From contig JAFUZD010000120.1 in assembly GCA_017476785.1 (NCBI GenBank), forward strand, positions 1-37,083: a stretch of DNA of 37,083 nucleotides, given 5' to 3'. The position numbers and the translations under genes were made by a program. The notes under the pieces are model-generated. The model searched no databases and was not told where the DNA came from. It worked only from the letters and a program-made list of their open reading frames with translations. The stretch is from Prevotella sp. Its GTDB lineage: Bacteria; Bacteroidota; Bacteroidia; Bacteroidales; Bacteroidaceae. This document shows, one piece after another, positions 14,752 through 33,421 of this stretch (the first letter of the stretch is position 1; the number at the start of each line of letters is the position of its first letter).

Positions 14752-16983
14752 CTACTTAAGTGTGAATGTTAATTTAGAAACTATATGATTTGATGAAAAA
14801 CCTATTCTTGCTTCAAATTCACCCGGCTCTGCCACCCACTTCTGACGGGCATCGTCGTAGAAGCTGAGGGCGCGACGGTCGAGCGTCAACGTTACCTCGC
14901 GGCTCTCGCCGGGCTGTAGGTACACCTTCTGGAATCCTTTGAGTTCTTTAAGCGGACGCGGCAGTGAGCTCTGGCAGTCGCTGACGTACAGCTGTACGGT
15001 CTCGGCACCGGCCCTCTTGCCTGTATTCTTAACGTTGACCGTGACGGTTATATTGTCATCGGCGGTGATTTCTTTCTTGTCAATCCGCGCGTCGCTCAGC
15101 TTGAAAGTGGTGTAGCTCAGCCCATAGCCGAAGGCGAAGAGCGGCTTTACCTGATGCTTGTCGGCCCAGCGATAGCCCACGAAGATGTCTTCGGCATAGG
15201 TCTCGTCGATGACCTGATGGTCGGCTCGCCACGTGCCGGGATAGGAGCCTGTGGCGTGGGCACCCACGTCTTCCAGCCTGACCGGCCACGTGAAAGGCAG
15301 CTTACCGCTGGGATTGACGGCACCGGTCAGCACGTCGGCCAGCGCATTGCCGGCCTCGGAACCGAGGAACCAGCCCTGCACGACGGCAGGCACCTGCTTG
15401 AGCCACGGCATTGCCACGGCATTGCCCGAGATGTTCACGACAATCAGATTGCGGTTGGCACGTGCCAATGCCTCGATGACGCGGTCCTGCCCGTAAGGCA
15501 GCGCATAGTCTTTGCGGTCGTGCCCCTCGCAGTCCTGATAGTCGCTCTTGTTCAGTCCGCCGATGAATATTACGTAGTCGGCGTCCTTCGCAGCTTCCAC
15601 GGCCTCGGCAATCAGTGCCTCCGGCGTACGGTTGTCGGCCAGTTGCTGGCCCGTGGTCACTCCATTGTAGTCTCCTGTGACATCGCCCACATAGCCGCGG
15701 GCATACTTCAAAACAATCTTTTCACCCAGACGGGCTTTCAGGCCGTCCAGCGGCAGCACCTCGCGCTGCACTTTCAGCGACGACGAACCGCCACCTACGG
15801 TCATCATCTTGATGGCGTTCTCGCCTACTACCAATACCTTCTTGGGGCCAGAAGCGGTGTCGATGGGCAGGATGCCACGCTCGTTCTTGAGCAGCACGAT
15901 GCCCTCGCCGGCCACGCGGCGCGCCGTAGCATAGTGAGCCTCGGAGCACATCGACCCATAGGGACGCTGGCGGTTCATCGTGGTGCGGAACATCAGTCGC
16001 AGCACGCGGCGCACTTTCTCGTCCAGCTCCTGTGTAGTGTACTTTCCTTCGGTTATCAGCCGTTTGTAGGGCTGGGCCAAGTAATAATTGTCGTAAGCAT
16101 TGCTGGCGCCCTCGCTCAGGCCGTTGGTCCACGAACCGAACTCCATATCCAGTCCGTTGCGGATGGCCTCTTCCGTATTGTGCGTGCCGCCCCAGTCGCT
16201 GACGACCACGCCGTCGAAGCCCCACTCCTGCTTCAGAATCCGGTTGAGCAGGATGTTATTATGACAGTTGTGTTGGTTCTGATAAAGGTTGTAGGCACCC
16301 ATTATGGCCCACGCCCCACCCTCGCGCACGGCAGCCTCGAAGGCCGGCAGGTAGATTTCGCGCAGGGCACGGTCGCTCACGATGACGTTGACCTGATGGC
16401 GATACTCCTCGTCGTTGTTCAGCGCATAGTGCTTCACGCAGGCAGCCACGCCGCGCGACTGCAGGCCTTTAATGTAAGGTACGACCATCCGACCAGCCAG
16501 ATAGGGGTCCTCGCCCATATACTCGAAGTTGCGTCCACCCAGCGGCGTGCGGTAGATGTTGACACCCGGGCCGAGCATCACGCTCTTGCCCCGATAGAGT
16601 GCCTCCTCACCCAGACTGATGCCGTAAGCCTCCGAGAGGGCGGGATTCCACGTTGCTGCCAAGCAGGTGAGTGCAGGGAATGCCACGCACGAGTCGTTGG
16701 TCTGTCCGGCCTGCTCCCATTCATCCCACAGCACATCGGGGCGCACGCCGTGAGGGCCGTCGTCGGTCCACACGTCGGGAAAGCCGAGGCGCTTGATACC
16801 GGCCGAAGAGAACTTGCTCTGAGCGTGGATGACGGCAATCTTCTCGTCGAGTGTCATCCGGCTGAGGGCATCCTCAATGCGCAGTTCGATGCTCTTACTC
16901 TCGTCCAGATAGACGGGCAGTTGCTGTGCCATAGCCGAAAGGATGGCGAGCAGGGCAATGAATGTAAAGGTCAGTCGTTTCAT
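14752..16983 (-). CDS. Glycoside hydrolase family 3, beta-glucosidase/xylosidase-like
   Basis: A second GH3 enzyme of 743 residues, from a different branch than its neighbour. It has a type I signal peptide (MKRLTFTFIALLAILSAMAQ) and no lipobox, so it is likely periplasmic. KHYALNN (184-190) and the nucleophile motif VVSDWGGTHNTE (D263) mark the barrel. IFIGGLNKSDYQDCEGHDRKD is the second-domain active-site loop, and FAFGYGLSYTTF begins the FnIII-like domain. It opens the GH3-GH3 transcription unit with a -7 box 173 nt upstream and a long leader that contains a tandem 20-nt repeat. Activity on beta-gluco-oligosaccharides fits the neighbouring GH16/GH5, but family 3 also includes xylosidases, so the substrate is inference. 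Confidence 0.92.
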   Translation of the reverse strand: MKRLTFTFIALLAILSAMAQQLPVYLDESKSIELRIEDALSRMTLDEKIAVIHAQSKFSSAGIKRLGFPDVWTDDGPHGVRPDVLWDEWEQAGQTNDSCVAFPALTCLAATWNPALSEAYGISLGEEALYRGKSVMLGPGVNIYRTPLGGRNFEYMGEDPYLAGRMVVPYIKGLQSRGVAACVKHYALNNDEEYRHQVNVIVSDRALREIYLPAFEAAVREGGAWAIMGAYNLYQNQHNCHNNILLNRILKQEWGFDGVVVSDWGGTHNTEEAIRNGLDMEFGSWTNGLSEGASNAYDNYYLAQPYKRLITEGKYTTQELDEKVRRVLRLMFRTTMNRQRPYGSMCSEAHYATARRVAGEGIVLLKNERGILPIDTASGPKKVLVVGENAIKMMTVGGGSSSLKVQREVLPLDGLKARLGEKIVLKYARGYVGDVTGDYNGVTTGQQLADNRTPEALIAEAVEAAKDADYVIFIGGLNKSDYQDCEGHDRKDYALPYGQDRVIEALARANRNLIVVNISGNAVAMPWLKQVPAVVQGWFLGSEAGNALADVLTGAVNPSGKLPFTWPVRLEDVGAHATGSYPGTWRADHQVIDETYAEDIFVGYRWADKHQVKPLFAFGYGLSYTTFKLSDARIDKKEITADDNITVTVNVKNTGKRAGAETVQLYVSDCQSSLPRPLKELKGFQKVYLQPGESREVTLTLDRRALSFYDDARQKWVAEPGEFEARIGFSSNHIVSKLTFTLK

Positions 16984-17079: not shown

Positions 17080-17121
17080 GTTGATAATAAGTTAGTCAGA
17101 CGTTGATAATAAGTTAGTCAG
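17080..17121. repeat. Tandem 20-nt direct repeat in the GH3 leader
   Basis: GTTGATAATAAGTTAGTCAG occurs identically at 17080-17099 and 17102-17121, a 22-nt period. Both copies lie downstream of the GH3 -7 box, within the predicted 5' leader. A degenerate copy (TTGATA followed by AAGTTAGT) lies at 27577-27592 in the susC leader. Confidence 0.9.
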
Positions 17122-17306: not shown

Positions 17307-17431
17307 TGTACACGAAAGGCCTTTTCCCGCTACTTTGGTGCCACTGCTACCGCGCTCGCTGCGGATGGAGGGGCCGCCGGCAGCCCGCCAGACTGGCCTT
17401 ACCGTCATCACGCTGCCGACAGCCGGGAAGG

Positions 17432-17489
17432 AATTCTCGCGAGAATTTCGGAAATTTTCGCGAGAATTTCAAAAATTCTCGCGAGAATT
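17432..17489. repeat. Phased palindrome array 1 (three TTCTCGCGAGAA units, 21-bp period)
   Basis: Three palindromes centred on CGCG at 17438-17441, 17459-17462 and 17480-17483 are spaced exactly 21 bp. Units 1 and 3 are perfect 16-bp palindromes (AATTCTCGCGAGAATT); unit 2 is a 20-bp palindrome with one mismatch. The spacers are also A/T-rich and partly symmetrical. It lies about 50 nt past the kinase stop and 270 nt upstream of the GH3 -7 box. A second array of the same design is at 32292-32350. Confidence 0.9.
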
Positions 17490-17538
17490 CTCAATGGCCC
17501 CACCCGTACGGCAGGGAGAGAGGCGCCGTTCGGACTGC

Positions 17539-18774
17539 TCAAGCCACATCGTCGACGAAGTCAAGTCCCTGATGTGAGTGGCAGATGAATGAGCAGAACG
17601 TGTCCTTATACTGCGGGAACGCCGACAGATAGTCGGCCGTCACCTGCGTACGCACTGCATCGGCCTGCTGCACGTCGATCAATGCCACGCACGAGCCGAT
17701 GAAGCCGGCACCGCTGAAGCGCGCCCCATAGACGCCCGCGGTGTGGCGCAGGCTCTGATAGAGCGAGATGAGCTCGGGCGAACCGCACTCGTAATTGTGG
17801 ATGGAACTCTCACAGCTCTCGAACATCAGCTGCCCAAAGTGCTCTATGTCGCCCTGCTGCCAGAGCTCTACACCCCGCTGCACGCGCTCGTTCTCCTCGT
17901 AGAAGTGGCGGGCACGGCGGAAAAAGCGCGGAGGCATCATCGGGGCATAGCGGTCGTAAAGCTGCCGGTCTACGTGGCGCAGGTGTACATTCTCCAACCG
18001 TCCTAACTGACTGTCGCCGTAGGCCTGCAGCATCCAGCCGGCCGCACGGCATTCCTGCACACGCAGGTTGTAGTCGGTATTGGTCAGCATCCGCGAAACG
18101 CCGCTGTAAAAGATACCGATGCAGAAAGGCAGGTTCTCGTCGGGTGCATCGGCACCGAACGTACCGAAAGGCAACGTCTGGTGCTCCGACGTCTCGGTAT
18201 CGATGAAAAGCAGATGATGGCGTTCGCCCAGCGTCACGCACGACTGGTCGAGGATGCCGTTGGTCAGTCCGATGAACATCCGCTCGGCGCGCGAGGCCAG
18301 CGTCACCATCTGGTCGCGCGTCAGCAACAGATAGTTGGCCTTTGCCAGTGCTGCGATGAATCCGCACAGCAGCGCTGCCGACGAGGCCACGCCGCCCGAA
18401 GGGATGGAGCCACGGATAATGCCGCGCACCCCTTTCTTCAGCTGGAACTCTTTCTGCATCACCCATACGGCACCACGCAGGAAGTCGCCCCAGTTGAAAT
18501 GCTTCTCGTAGATGGGGGCCTCCACGTGGAAGATGGTGGGGTCGGCAAACGACAGCGACACCATCTCTATAAGTCCCGTTTCGGTAGGTTGGAAGAGAAT
18601 GTCGATGCCCTTATCCACGGCAAAGCCCGTCACCAGTCCGTGCTGGTGGTCGACGTGGGCTCCCAGCGGACTGACGCCGTAGGGAGCAAAGACGTGGTAC
18701 AGGTCGTCACCCGGGCCGAAGTGACGCTCATAGTGTTGATATAACTCTTTCATTGCTGTATCTTTACTTATCAT
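17539..18774 (-). CDS. GHMP sugar-1-kinase, galactokinase-like with a galacturonokinase-type substrate loop
   Basis: A 411-residue GHMP kinase that would phosphorylate the anomeric hydroxyl of a sugar with ATP in the cytosol. The ATP loop IPSGGVASSAAL (124-135), catalytic Asp motif GILDQSC (D176) and C-terminal GARFSGAGFIGS (350-361) are intact. The substrate loop reads PYGVSPLGAHVDHQHG (31-46) where galactokinases have GRVNLIGEHTDYN: the sugar-contacting Glu is Ala and the Tyr after the Asp is His. From memory, plant galacturonokinase has PLGAHIDHQ here, so galacturonic acid or another sugar is as likely as galactose. It overlaps the GH5 stop by 4 nt (ATGA), implying translational coupling and PUL co-expression. 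Met8 is an alternative start. Confidence 0.82.
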   Translation of the reverse strand: MISKDTAMKELYQHYERHFGPGDDLYHVFAPYGVSPLGAHVDHQHGLVTGFAVDKGIDILFQPTETGLIEMVSLSFADPTIFHVEAPIYEKHFNWGDFLRGAVWVMQKEFQLKKGVRGIIRGSIPSGGVASSAALLCGFIAALAKANYLLLTRDQMVTLASRAERMFIGLTNGILDQSCVTLGERHHLLFIDTETSEHQTLPFGTFGADAPDENLPFCIGIFYSGVSRMLTNTDYNLRVQECRAAGWMLQAYGDSQLGRLENVHLRHVDRQLYDRYAPMMPPRFFRRARHFYEENERVQRGVELWQQGDIEHFGQLMFESCESSIHNYECGSPELISLYQSLRHTAGVYGARFSGAGFIGSCVALIDVQQADAVRTQVTADYLSAFPQYKDTFCSFICHSHQGLDFVDDVA

Positions 18775-30431: not shown

Positions 30432-32240
30432 TTAAATCAAGCCGCCTTTGTCCAACAGTTGCTTCAGCAGGAACGTTGCGTTCTGGTTGCGAGCCACGCC
30501 CGGTGCTATCTTGTAGGTATAGGTTACAGTGTCTGACAACTCTATCTCGAAGCAGTAGTTGTGGAACTGTCCGGGCCGCTCGTCGGCCATCCGCGACAGC
30601 TCAAGGTCGTGGGTGGCAACGATGCCGCTGACGGTCTGGCGCGCAATGGCCTCCAGAAACATCCGCGAGCCGTTCAGCTTGTCGAGCGAGTTAGTGCCCT
30701 TCAATATCTCGTCGAGGATAATCAGATGGCGGCGGCCGGGCGTCAGCCGCCCGAGCAACTGCTGCAGGCGCAGCAGCTCGGCATTGAAGTAGGAGATGCC
30801 GCTGGCCAGACTGTCGCTGGTGCGCATACTGGTAAACAGCGCAAAACGGCTCACCGTCAGCTGCCCGGCAGCCACGGGCAGCCCCGCCCACGCCGCCAGA
30901 CAGCTGACGCCCACCGAGCGCAGGAACGTGCTCTTGCCTGCCATATTGGCCCCGGTGACGATGTAGTAGTGCCCGTCGGCTATCTCGAAGTCGTTGCCTA
31001 CGGCCGCCGCGCCCAAGAAAGGATGGCGCAGGTCGCGCGCGCGATATATTATAATAGGTGAATCCACGACCTCGGCGTCGGTGTCCGTCGGGTGATTGTA
31101 GCGATAGGTGCCCATCGACACCAGCATATCCAGCTGACTGACCAGCTCCACCCACTGGCTCAGCCGGTCGCCGTAGCACTGCTGCCAGCCGAGGAAGCGG
31201 CGCAGCAGGAACACGTCGCTCAGGAAGAGCGCGTTGGCCAGCTGCCCGCCGAGCAGGTTGCCGCGGCGGTCGAGCCCCCGCAGGATGCGCTCCAAGCGGC
31301 TGAAGGAGAGGACGGCCGGGCGCAGCTGTTCTTGCATCTGTCCCAGCAGGCCGTCGCTGCCGAAGGGGGCGTCGGTGAAGTGGCGAGTCAGGCGGACGTA
31401 GACTTGCAGCTGGCGGTGCAGGCGGTCTACGGCCGAGGCTACGGCGCGCAGCGGGAGCGACGTCAGCAGATAGGCTGCTGCCAGATGGAACAGTCCCCAC
31501 CAGATGGGCACGCTGGCCGACACATAACCGGCCAATGCTGCTATCAGACTGCCGAAGAAACCGGCGATACACAGGCCGCACACGACGGGCACCAACGGGC
31601 TCAGCGGCCACAGGCCGGTCTCCAGCTCTCGGGCACGCGCCACGGCCTCCTCCAGCTGGCGGGTGTCAACGCGTTGCCGCTGCCCCATTGCGAGGAAAAC
31701 GGCTCGCCACGGCTCAGCCTCAGCCAGCACGCCGACGGCCTCGCGCCGCCGCGCTATCTCGTCGCACCCGTCGGGCATCTCGCTGCTGAGCAGGGCGGCC
31801 AGCGCGTCGGCTCCCCCACTGCTGACGGCACGGCAGAGGTGCTGAAAGAGCGACTGCGGCCCGAAGACGTCGAGGTCGAACGTATAGGGATGGCGCGGGT
31901 CGGCATAGCGCTGCCCGTCGTCGAATGGCTCTAAGTGGCCTGCCAGATACTGCAGCTCGTGCTGATAGACGCGGTGCAGGTCTTCCAGCTGCTCCGTCTG
32001 CGCGCTGTTCTGCCCGTCTTTCCAGCGCACCGCCAGATAGGCGGCGAGCATCAGGGCGGCCATCCACAGCCACGCCACGCCCGCACTGTCTGCCACCGTG
32101 TAGGTCGCCAGTGCTGCCAGCATCAGGCCGAACGTGGCCAACTGCCCCGCTAAGAAGAGGCGGTTGCGACGCCGCAGCCGCGCGAGGGCGGCAGCCAGCT
32201 CGTCGGCGCGGTGCTGATAATAGGAGGGTCGGTCGGTCAT
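30432..32240 (-). CDS. Membrane-anchored MutS-like ATPase
   Basis: A 602-residue protein with the C-terminal MutS ATPase but none of the DNA mismatch-recognition domains of MutS. Two hydrophobic regions (about 28-72 and 215-265) predict a membrane anchor. The ATPase has Walker A TGANMAGKST (429-438), the switch region SMRTSDSLASGISYFNAEL, Walker B HLIILDEILKGTNS (D510, E511) and VSGIVATHDLELS. A coiled-coil/lever region precedes it. Such proteins are found in Bacteroidota and usually annotated as mismatch repair, but their role is not established; a function at the membrane is inferred. The start at 32240 is fixed because the next Met lies inside the first hydrophobic region. The promoter box is only 8 nt upstream. 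Confidence 0.88.
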   Translation of the reverse strand: MTDRPSYYQHRADELAAALARLRRRNRLFLAGQLATFGLMLAALATYTVADSAGVAWLWMAALMLAAYLAVRWKDGQNSAQTEQLEDLHRVYQHELQYLAGHLEPFDDGQRYADPRHPYTFDLDVFGPQSLFQHLCRAVSSGGADALAALLSSEMPDGCDEIARRREAVGVLAEAEPWRAVFLAMGQRQRVDTRQLEEAVARARELETGLWPLSPLVPVVCGLCIAGFFGSLIAALAGYVSASVPIWWGLFHLAAAYLLTSLPLRAVASAVDRLHRQLQVYVRLTRHFTDAPFGSDGLLGQMQEQLRPAVLSFSRLERILRGLDRRGNLLGGQLANALFLSDVFLLRRFLGWQQCYGDRLSQWVELVSQLDMLVSMGTYRYNHPTDTDAEVVDSPIIIYRARDLRHPFLGAAAVGNDFEIADGHYYIVTGANMAGKSTFLRSVGVSCLAAWAGLPVAAGQLTVSRFALFTSMRTSDSLASGISYFNAELLRLQQLLGRLTPGRRHLIILDEILKGTNSLDKLNGSRMFLEAIARQTVSGIVATHDLELSRMADERPGQFHNYCFEIELSDTVTYTYKIAPGVARNQNATFLLKQLLDKGGLI

Positions 32241-32248
32241 AATGGCGG

Positions 32249-32256
32249 CAAAGGTA
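32249..32256 (-). promoter_or_regulatory. -7 box of the MutS-like gene; near-leaderless
   Basis: The minus strand reads TACCTTTG, ending 8 nt before the ATG at 32240, so the leader would be about 4 nt. No clear -33 TTG is seen at 20 nt. Confidence 0.6.
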
Positions 32257-32291
32257 CGTAAAAAGCGTGAGAAACGGGCGGGGCAGAAATG

Positions 32292-32350
32292 AATTCTCGC
32301 GAAAATTTCCGGAATTCTCGCGAGTATCCGGAAAAGTCTCGCGAGAATTT
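32292..32350. repeat. Phased palindrome array 2 (three CTCGCGAG-type units, 21-bp period)
   Basis: CGCG centres at 32298-32301, 32319-32322 and 32340-32343 are spaced exactly 21 bp, as in array 1. The palindromes are slightly degenerate (TTCTCGCGAAAA, TTCTCGCGAGTA, GTCTCGCGAGAA). The spacers carry TTTCCGGAA and ATCCGGAAA, a second symmetrical element out of phase by half a period. The array lies between the divergent MutS-like and hydrolase promoters. Confidence 0.9.
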
Positions 32351-32363
32351 CTCCACGGGCGTC

Positions 32364-32394
32364 TTGGCCGTCTGCCTACTTTTGGTTATCTTTG
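32364..32394 (+). promoter_or_regulatory. Promoter of the YqiA-like hydrolase
   Basis: A -33 TTG (32364-32366), an exact 20-nt spacer and a -7 TATCTTTG (32387-32394). Transcription would start near 32398, which rules out the upstream in-frame ATG at 32267 and supports the start at 32420. Confidence 0.8.
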
Positions 32395-32419
32395 CATCTC
32401 AAACCATACGAACAAGACA

Positions 32420-33421
32420 ATGACAATGGACAATCCATACATCAAACAATATCCCGAGCTGATGGCGGGAAAGACCGTACTCTATGTCCACGGCTTCGCT
32501 TCGAGCGGTCAGTCGGGCACGGTAGGCCGGCTGCGCGAGGTGATGCCCGAGGCTAACGTGATAGCCCCCGACCTGCCACTCCACCCTGCCGAGGCACTGG
32601 AACTGCTGCGGCAGACGTGCGCCAGCGAGCAGCCCAGCCTCATCGTAGGCACCTCGATGGGCGGAATGTTCACCGAGAAGCTCTACGGCTACGACCGCAT
32701 CTGCGTGAATCCGGCGATGCAGATGGCCGAGACGATGAAGGAGCACGGGATGATGGGGGCACAGACGTTTCATAACCCGCGGCGCGACGGCATTCAGGAC
32801 TTCATCGTGACAAAGGCACTGGTGAAGGAATATAAGGCGATAACCGAGCTGAACTTCAGCGGCACCGACGACGGGGAGCAGCGACGCTGCTGGGGACTCT
32901 TCGGCGACGAGGACCCGCTGGTAGACACCTACGAGCTGTTTCGCCAGCACTATCCGCAGGCCATCCGCTTCCACGGCGAGCACCGGATGAGCGACCAGAG
33001 CTTTATGCACTCGGTGCTGCCCGTCATTCGCTGGATCGACGATGCCCAGCAACGCCGCGAGCGACCCGTGGTCTACATCTGCACCGAGACACTGGCCGAC
33101 GGCTGGCAGAAGCCCACCAGCTCGATGCTGAAGGCCGTCAGGATGCTCATCGAGCACTATCAGGTCTACTTCGTTGCGCCTGCGCGGTCGGCCGAGCCCG
33201 AGCGCTACGCCGAGGTGACGGCGTGGCTGGAGCAGTATGTCAACGTGCCGGCGTGGGGACACACGGTGTTCACCAACCAGCGCCACCTGCTCTATGGCGA
33301 CTACCTGATTACGGCCGACGACCTGCCTGAGGCAATGGCCACCGTCGTCCGCTACGGCAGCGACACGTTCAAGACGTGGGAGGAGGTCATCGAATACTTC
33401 GACCGGCTGGGCGGTCAGTAA
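32420..33421 (+). CDS. YqiA/YcfP-like alpha/beta hydrolase with a C-terminal HAD-like tail
   Basis: A 333-residue cytosolic protein of two parts. Residues 1-212 are an alpha/beta hydrolase of the YqiA type: VLYVHGFASSGQSGT (20-34), the nucleophile elbow VGTSMGG (S79), an acidic loop GDEDPLV (162-168) and H188 in GEHRM. Residues 214-333 resemble the C-terminal part of the cytosolic 5'(3')-nucleotidase/HAD fold (FTNQRHLLYGDYLITADD, 284-301). The expected DxD nucleophile position reads YICTETLAD, so that half is probably not a phosphatase. The substrate is unknown; an esterase role is inferred. The frame is open from 32267, but those 51 residues translate the palindrome array and the promoter, so the ATG at 32420 (or 32426) is the start. 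Confidence 0.8.
   Translation: MTMDNPYIKQYPELMAGKTVLYVHGFASSGQSGTVGRLREVMPEANVIAPDLPLHPAEALELLRQTCASEQPSLIVGTSMGGMFTEKLYGYDRICVNPAMQMAETMKEHGMMGAQTFHNPRRDGIQDFIVTKALVKEYKAITELNFSGTDDGEQRRCWGLFGDEDPLVDTYELFRQHYPQAIRFHGEHRMSDQSFMHSVLPVIRWIDDAQQRRERPVVYICTETLADGWQKPTSSMLKAVRMLIEHYQVYFVAPARSAEPERYAEVTAWLEQYVNVPAWGHTVFTNQRHLLYGDYLITADDLPEAMATVVRYGSDTFKTWEEVIEYFDRLGGQ

Follow-up and report, generated by a model that had tools for sequence, protein, structure and literature searches.

Two intergenic arrays of short palindromes in Prevotella DNA raise the question of what might recognize a site of this shape, and whether such sites are peculiar to one locus or belong to a larger set. Both lie in the window, by which we mean the whole stretch of 37,083 nucleotides that was analyzed. 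Each array unit consists of a 16-bp palindrome, AATTCTCGCGAGAATT, which reads as AATT-CTCGCGAG-AATT, and a variable 5-bp spacer; the period is therefore 21 bp, and the array measures 58 bp in total. In agreement with the initial annotation, which had described three palindromes per array at an exact 21-bp period, the TCGCGA cores start at 17437, 17458 and 17479 in array 1 and at 32297, 32318 and 32339 in array 2, so that all four spacings (4/4) are exactly 21 bp. The arrays also differ in detail, as had been claimed, the outer halves of array 2 being less perfect than those of array 1. The arrays, their flanks and the adjoining genes are as follows.

17432-17489, no strand: array 1, three palindromes (17432-17447, 17453-17468, 17474-17489) with 5-bp spacers
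17356-17431, no strand: left flank of array 1, 22-bp phased zone; the A at 17382 is the mirror of the T50 preference
17490-17565, no strand: right flank of array 1, in the phased zone, with the T50 base at 17539; runs into the end of the gene at 17539-18774
17539-18774, minus strand: neighbor gene of array 1, 3' end 49 bp away; putative galactokinase (by eye)
32292-32349, no strand: array 2, three units (32292-32307, 32313-32328, 32334-32349), outer halves imperfect
32216-32291, no strand: left flank of array 2, phased zone; the A at 32242 is the mirror of T50
32350-32425, no strand: right flank of array 2, in the phased zone, with the T50 base at 32399
30432-32240, minus strand: divergent neighbor gene of array 2, start 51 bp away
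32420-33421, plus strand: divergent neighbor gene of array 2, ATG 70 bp away

The window holds no further array, again as first described: of its ten TCGCGA hexamers six are in the arrays, and none of the other four is paired. Since 17.4 would be expected, the bare hexamer is rarer than expected rather than enriched. Elsewhere in the window, a 20-bp repeat, gttgataataagttagtcag, occurs in two copies 22 bp apart (17080-17121), upstream of the gene at 14752-16983, and is perhaps another class of phased site. The minus strand at 30289-30354 matches the Rfam family BTncRNA_FopS (RF04319, 76.1 bits), a Bacteroidetes family of paralogous sRNAs.

The genome to which the window belongs, labeled G000 (G-numbers denote genomes and L-numbers loci of this analysis), measures 2.72 Mb in 139 contigs. 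The whole genome has 95 TCGCGA pairs at gaps of 5-35 (control 2) and 61 triples with at most two mismatches (control 1), which leaves little room for chance, as the initial annotation had argued. It had also held that the array idea would fail if copies lacked a 21-bp phase or an intergenic bias; among the pairs listed, 47 of 50 have the 21-bp gap, and 3 of 49 arrays lie inside an open frame. The latter figure comes from the 49 of 61 triples that were listed and fetched with full frame, on which the gene-context and flank analyses of this genome are based. By a rough gene call, these comprise 21 tandem, 15 divergent and 8 convergent arrays (44/49 between two genes), two at locus edges and the three in frames. 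As every orientation occurs, a promoter or terminator role for all arrays was rejected. One array (L053, G000:C31:15460) is located about 580 bp from a gene resembling dnaA, the protein having been read by eye.

The copy number of three is likewise maintained: none of 98 array ends in G000 has a core with at most one mismatch one step further out, and the same test in G346 gave 0/78 and 1/60. Runs beyond three units occur in G279 (overlapping matches) and G351 (4-5 units). The second symmetrical series that had been seen in the spacers can be confirmed, though it is weak: positions 17-21 prefer T,T,C,N,G.

The regularity extends beyond the palindromes. Outside the 58 bp, the flanks in G000 are unrelated, the best pair being 47% identical over 75 bases. 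Across 98 sides there are single-base preferences at A22 (46/98), T28 (49/98), A44 (46/98) and T50 (68/98, z 11), and further out at A66 (50/98) and T72 (53/98), which recur in 22-bp steps for about 75 bp on either side of the array; from p=100 to 240 one column passes. Mean identity between flanks peaks at shifts of 0, 22 and 44. The T50 preference is present in all four flanks of the two window arrays (4/4) and persists in coding DNA (18/30 coding, 45/58 noncoding). Mirror positions in these flanks show no covariation (1406 matches observed vs 1396.6 expected), and a single-base phased pattern of this kind, without hairpin covariation, therefore points to protein-DNA contact. Flanks in G346 use other bases (TT..AA) at the same centers, 25, 47 and 69 bp from the array end, and those in G351 have GTATAAATATAC and GTATAAACATAC near 25.5 and 47.5 (by eye). 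The flank pattern is not the same everywhere: G008 has a period of 21 bp (5 arrays), and in G023/G110 the 22-bp signal is weak (11 arrays). In G346, moreover, eight pairs of an AGCT and a GGCC array are exactly 151 bp apart, by arithmetic the distance that would let paired arrays share the three middle flank sites. Judged from sequence, flank phasing and 151-bp pairs are the trace that a regular protein assembly would be expected to leave.

Two further loci of G346 may be mentioned here. At L136 (G346:C1:3040627-3042471) a transposase-like gene (by eye) lies between AGCT and GGCC arrays 1844 bp apart, such as an insertion into a 151-bp pair would produce. At L141 (G346:C1:about 394150) there are free-standing 22-bp tandem repeats with TTCTATTG, like the array flank motif.

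The initial annotation had proposed looking for the same cores in related Prevotella genomes. What recurs there is the 58-bp architecture, but the TCGCGA core itself matched in only 4 of 150 genus genomes, its own included, with a clear second set only in G145 (5, core TTTCGCGAAA). A search with the AATT frame (at most three mismatches) matched 72 of 398 genus genomes, 20 of them with at least four matches and up to 77, and the reversed control gave at most three. The cores within the frame include ATAGCTAT and TTGGCCAA in G346, G023, G110 and G155, AACTAGTT in G181, G372 and G134, TGCTAGCA in G008, TATGCATA in G062 and CTCTGGAG in G279; looser frame matches are found in G247, G360 and G383. 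G145 holds frame arrays of both the TTCGCGAA type and the TATGCATA type (L118, L033). G351 has no frame match and instead carries odd palindromes at 22 bp, with 24 lag-22 places in a 400-kb sample (25 by a looser count). Because the core varies by species (CGCG, AGCT, GGCC, CTAG, TGCA), one conserved methylase target in the arrays, which had been raised as an option, is unlikely.

Arrays with different cores can occupy corresponding places. A comparison of 292 neighbor proteins gave 20 cross-genome pairs, and at three loci both neighbors are homologous across genomes while the cores are different: L029 of G000 (CGCG) vs L250 of G346 (GGCC), with neighbor identities of 38% and 85%; L158 of G346 (GGCC) vs L035 of G145 (TTTCGCGAAA), with 84% and 92%; and L189 of G181 (AACTAGTT) vs L204 of G008 (TGCTAGCA), with 91% and 95%. 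The additional pairs have one common neighbor, and the gene end facing the array is not always the same. Single-neighbor matches between G000 and G346 were seen at four loci, with about one expected by chance (an estimate), and are suggestive of shared array places, the cases with both neighbors being stronger. Within G346, L119 and L137 look homologous by eye, yet hold an AGCT and a GGCC array, respectively. For array 2, an empty-site comparison found no close relative: among the 398 genomes, identity in the coding part reached 74% at best, and a palindrome scan of the 29 loci fetched found no triple.

One protein family adjoins arrays of three core classes, the HU-HIG protein of 127-130 aa (PF18291). 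All three proteins searched match PF18291 (66.4, 73.1 and 71.1 bits, cut-off 26.2; E 3e-18 to 3e-20), PF00216 is above cut-off in one of the three, and a search for a solved-structure relative of the array-linked protein returned only two weak HU matches (best E 0.0017). HU proteins usually bind DNA with little sequence specificity. To our knowledge, the HU-HIG family is known mainly as a domain name; HU-superfamily clades are reportedly the subject of a paper by Burroughs and others from 2017. In open papers we found no description of these arrays or of HU-HIG targets, and none on HU-HIG together with Bacteroidetes.

In G000 the HU-HIG gene (G000:C82:2855-3235) has an array 50 bp upstream. 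Relatives occur in 20/20 genomes that were profile-searched (84 matches), and the best HU-HIG genes, one each from 12 genomes, are preceded without exception by an AATT-frame triple, at a distance of 28-203 bp (12/12); two paralogues, in G372 and G181, have a CGGTACCG triple there. Wherever the two were compared, upstream and dispersed arrays of a genome have the same type of core, except in G008, where the upstream array is of the AACTGGTT type vs TGCTAGCA in five dispersed arrays. More broadly, a 21/22-bp repeat lies within 600 bp upstream of 38 of the 69 HU-HIG genes examined (of 84 matches; 31/69 without), and of 24/55 when the 14 array-linked genes are left aside, compared with 8/193 and 13/207 ordinary genes; simple repeats of short period account for at least two of the 38 (L287, L320). 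The HU-HIG gene L294 of G351 is preceded by a repeat of the AAATTCACTGAATTT type, which is also found at three dispersed places of the 400-kb sample; of the five HU-HIG genes examined in that genome, none has an upstream array matching the genome's main family (AAAAGTTNAACTTTT). The HU-HIG paralogues L306 (G062) and L310 (G145) have a common upstream 22-bp triple repeat, ACAAAGTCGACGAGTTTGT.

Core and protein vary together. Over 15 genes, core distance tracks protein distance (Mantel r 0.749, 0/20,000 permutations), and the two distances share phylogeny as well. The HU-HIG proteins of G023 and G155 are 91% identical, with upstream cores AGCT vs GGCC, on which ground one HU-HIG protein may accept TRGCYA; such a tolerance would account for the two array classes in G346.

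A 14-row HU-HIG profile run on 398 genomes (E <= 1e-36, with up to ten candidates per genome scored) matched in 73 genomes, and loci were taken from the best 30 of these 73, 18 of them new genes. An upstream array was absent in 17 of the 18 new homologues. The remaining one, in G054, has three perfect 21-bp repeats upstream, and a forward test with this repeat gave 16 matching triples in G054 (control 0), the upstream copy being one of them, and none of this type in 23 other genomes searched. A TATAGCTATA unit occurs once in most of the 16 triples, a few of which are nearly identical to one another and lie at the start of contigs. In a quick tree the 17 array-less genes form one branch (support 94), joined to the array-bearing gene of G279 (support 90), and the array link is thus confined to some HU-HIG branches. 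Of the 20 genomes with at least four frame matches, 12 have a gene of the array-linked set and eight have none (G100, G110, G145, G219, G247, G278, G360, G383); four of these eight are 55-84% complete, G278 and G247 are 99% and 97% complete, and in six of the eight more distant HU-HIG genes bear other upstream repeats. The four frame matches of G278 are perhaps a relic.

The distribution along the chromosome was assessed in G346, a single contig of 3.73 Mb and the one single-contig genome with many frame arrays. Core searches gave 39 AGCT and 30 GGCC arrays, 69 in all after one frame-less match was dropped from each list; the frame search counted 77, of which up to eight weaker matches have no position on the contig assigned. 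The 69 arrays form 55 loci, and the largest gap between them extends from 1,453,122 to 2,336,596 (883 kb). A gap of this size or larger occurred in 4/100,000 random sets and, by family, in 4/20,000 for AGCT and 242/20,000 for GGCC. The sampled GC skew flips sign between 1.73 and 1.90 Mb, inside the array gap. No parS, looked for as a marker of the origin, was found in a sampled 400 kb of G346. The suggestion of a nucleoid site in the initial annotation gains some support from this terminus gap, but the gap is absent in the 400-kb sample of G351, which weakens it as a general rule.

Taken together, we consider it likely that the arrays are dispersed, specific HU-HIG binding sites, one copy being for self-control and the others for marking the chromosome, with a specificity that would change along with the protein. 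Three HU-HIG dimers would bind the three palindromes from one side of the helix, two helical turns apart, and the assembly would continue in both directions for about 75 bp along the weaker flanks, which are phased at 22 bp. This is in line with the cooperative dimeric protein that had been postulated, which fits our measurements and for which HU-HIG is now a specific candidate. Because an array copy precedes its gene, the HU-HIG protein probably controls its own synthesis; in G000 and G346 the upstream array is positioned between a promoter-like box and the start codon (by eye). The remaining arrays would mark the chromosome between genes. Protein and sites would shift specificity together, the 8-bp core differing by species or paralogue and the architecture and some positions being kept.

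Dimers of HU and IHF introduce two kinks into DNA, spaced by about 9 bp. Such dimers would be well matched to units in which AATT arms enclose an 8-bp core, and the bends of in-phase units would add up to loop or wrap about 210 bp of DNA, flanks included; binding, dimers, bending and function are what we infer here from sequence. At the dispersed copies, local bending or wrapping would likely serve chromosome organization or division control and not the control of neighboring genes. The mixed orientations and the terminus gap of G346 are the reasons for favoring such a chromosome-scale role, similar to that of Noc or SlmA.

Other explanations have to be weighed against HU-HIG-bound chromosome marks. 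If the arrays were operators of a large regulon, their binder, whether HU-HIG or another protein, would mainly switch neighboring genes. Several arrays do adjoin promoter-like boxes or lie in 5' leaders (array 2 and the HU gene, by eye), and the HU gene has its upstream array in 14/14 cases. Yet all orientations occur, convergent ones making up, by raw count, 8/49 arrays in G000 and 13/69 in G346, and the neighbors in both genomes look like mixed housekeeping genes (named by eye), which makes a regulon unlikely. Somewhat less probable still is that a different, unlinked protein binds the arrays and that the HU-HIG gene is merely one of its targets. Were HU-HIG an ancient target, linkage and co-variation would be expected as well; however, the paralogues in G372 and G181 bear two different upstream cores, matching the cross-genome paralogy, and since paralogues of the same genome differ in this way, a single outside binder is not a simple explanation.

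We would give about the same low weight to non-autonomous mobile elements, MITE- or REP-like, which spread and then diverged. The case for them comes from G351, where the MITE-like elements L209-L228, about 214 bp long, repeat 4-5 odd palindromes every 22 bp, have conserved flanks and spacers and occur at 24 places in 400 kb; from L119, L128 and L137 of G346, which look like homologous copies (by eye); and from Porphyromonas, where BrickBuilt is a repeat inside a MITE (PMC4596501). In G000, however, the near-perfect units stand between unrelated flanks and have variable spacers, orthologous places can hold arrays with different cores, phage and plasmid records contain no match for array 1, and viral contigs none for two exact frame patterns. 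A phage or plasmid origin was rejected on these last two results. A recombination site, as first considered, found nothing in its favor, given that arrays can persist at orthologous places, that array 1 lacks a phage or plasmid match and that viral contigs lack the two frame patterns. That the arrays act as RNA, as hairpins or terminators, is very improbable. The palindromes would fold, some arrays adjoin terminator-like sequences, and the flanks in G346 show slightly more mirror matches than expected (951 vs 926.1, homologous copies included); but the G000 flank mirrors do not covary, at spacer position 20 the count is 10 where 17.9 was expected, and no Rfam family was found at the window arrays or at 11 loci searched. 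The RNA hairpin was rejected on the G000 flank covariation and Rfam results.

The closest parallels to the proposed HU-HIG sites are those of nucleoid occlusion. There are about 70 NBS of 14 bp for Noc in B. subtilis and 24-52 SBS for SlmA in E. coli, and both are distributed non-uniformly and under-represented in a region that the neighboring text identifies as the terminus (PMC4726725). The arrays are similar in being tens of dispersed palindromes (61 in G000, 69 in G346) and in the terminus gap, the latter in G346 only and not in the G351 sample. In contrast to Noc and SlmA sites, which are single palindromes bound by ParB or TetR proteins, they are 21-bp triples with phased flanks, linked to an HU-HIG gene and with a core that varies by species. 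The HU protein PG0121 of P. gingivalis belongs to the same HU superfamily as the candidate binder and is described, in a heading of the paper, as binding DNA in a non-discriminatory manner (PMC3969353), whereas here the family is tied to specific triple arrays.

Like the arrays, the BrickBuilt repeats of P. gingivalis, from the same bacterial order, are intergenic and species-limited tandem repeats. They are described as 23-nt direct repeats without spacers, in 19 copies, with leader and tail bearing inverted ends, and the part of the paper seen describes no paired protein gene, unlike the HU-HIG link of the arrays (PMC4596501). The arrays lack the 23-nt direct repeat without spacer and the inverted ends, being 21-bp palindromic units with variable spacers and unrelated flanks. 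REP elements have a RAYT transposase as their partner. REP palindromes are likewise short, intergenic and present in many copies, but in the excerpt available they are 20-40 bp long and GTAG- or CGTC-tagged (PMC3733652); the arrays are fixed triples, and on inspection neither tag occurs in AATTCTCGCGAGAATT.

A more far-reaching reading is that HU-HIG is a large sequence-specific architectural family with private triple sites chromosome-wide, which are recoded in concert with the protein at speciation and spare the terminus, and that the system would serve as the missing nucleoid-occlusion device or arm organizer of the Bacteroidota. We put this forward only tentatively and think it rather doubtful; the concerted recoding would resemble, in bacteria, a centromere or PRDM9-type arms race.

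In summary, the arrays would represent a dispersed site set with its own candidate architectural protein, set apart from known kinds by its triple units, its phasing and its rapid recoding. The data suggest a fast-changing protein-DNA recognition code, which may organize the chromosome. If this is true, HU-HIG would gain a function and a DNA code, and high sequence specificity would be shown to be within the reach of HU-superfamily proteins. A set of dozens of sites that change together with a protein, with some of their places conserved, would be a rare natural experiment on co-evolution, and if the terminus gap is general, chromosome protection during division in the Bacteroidota would become directly testable.
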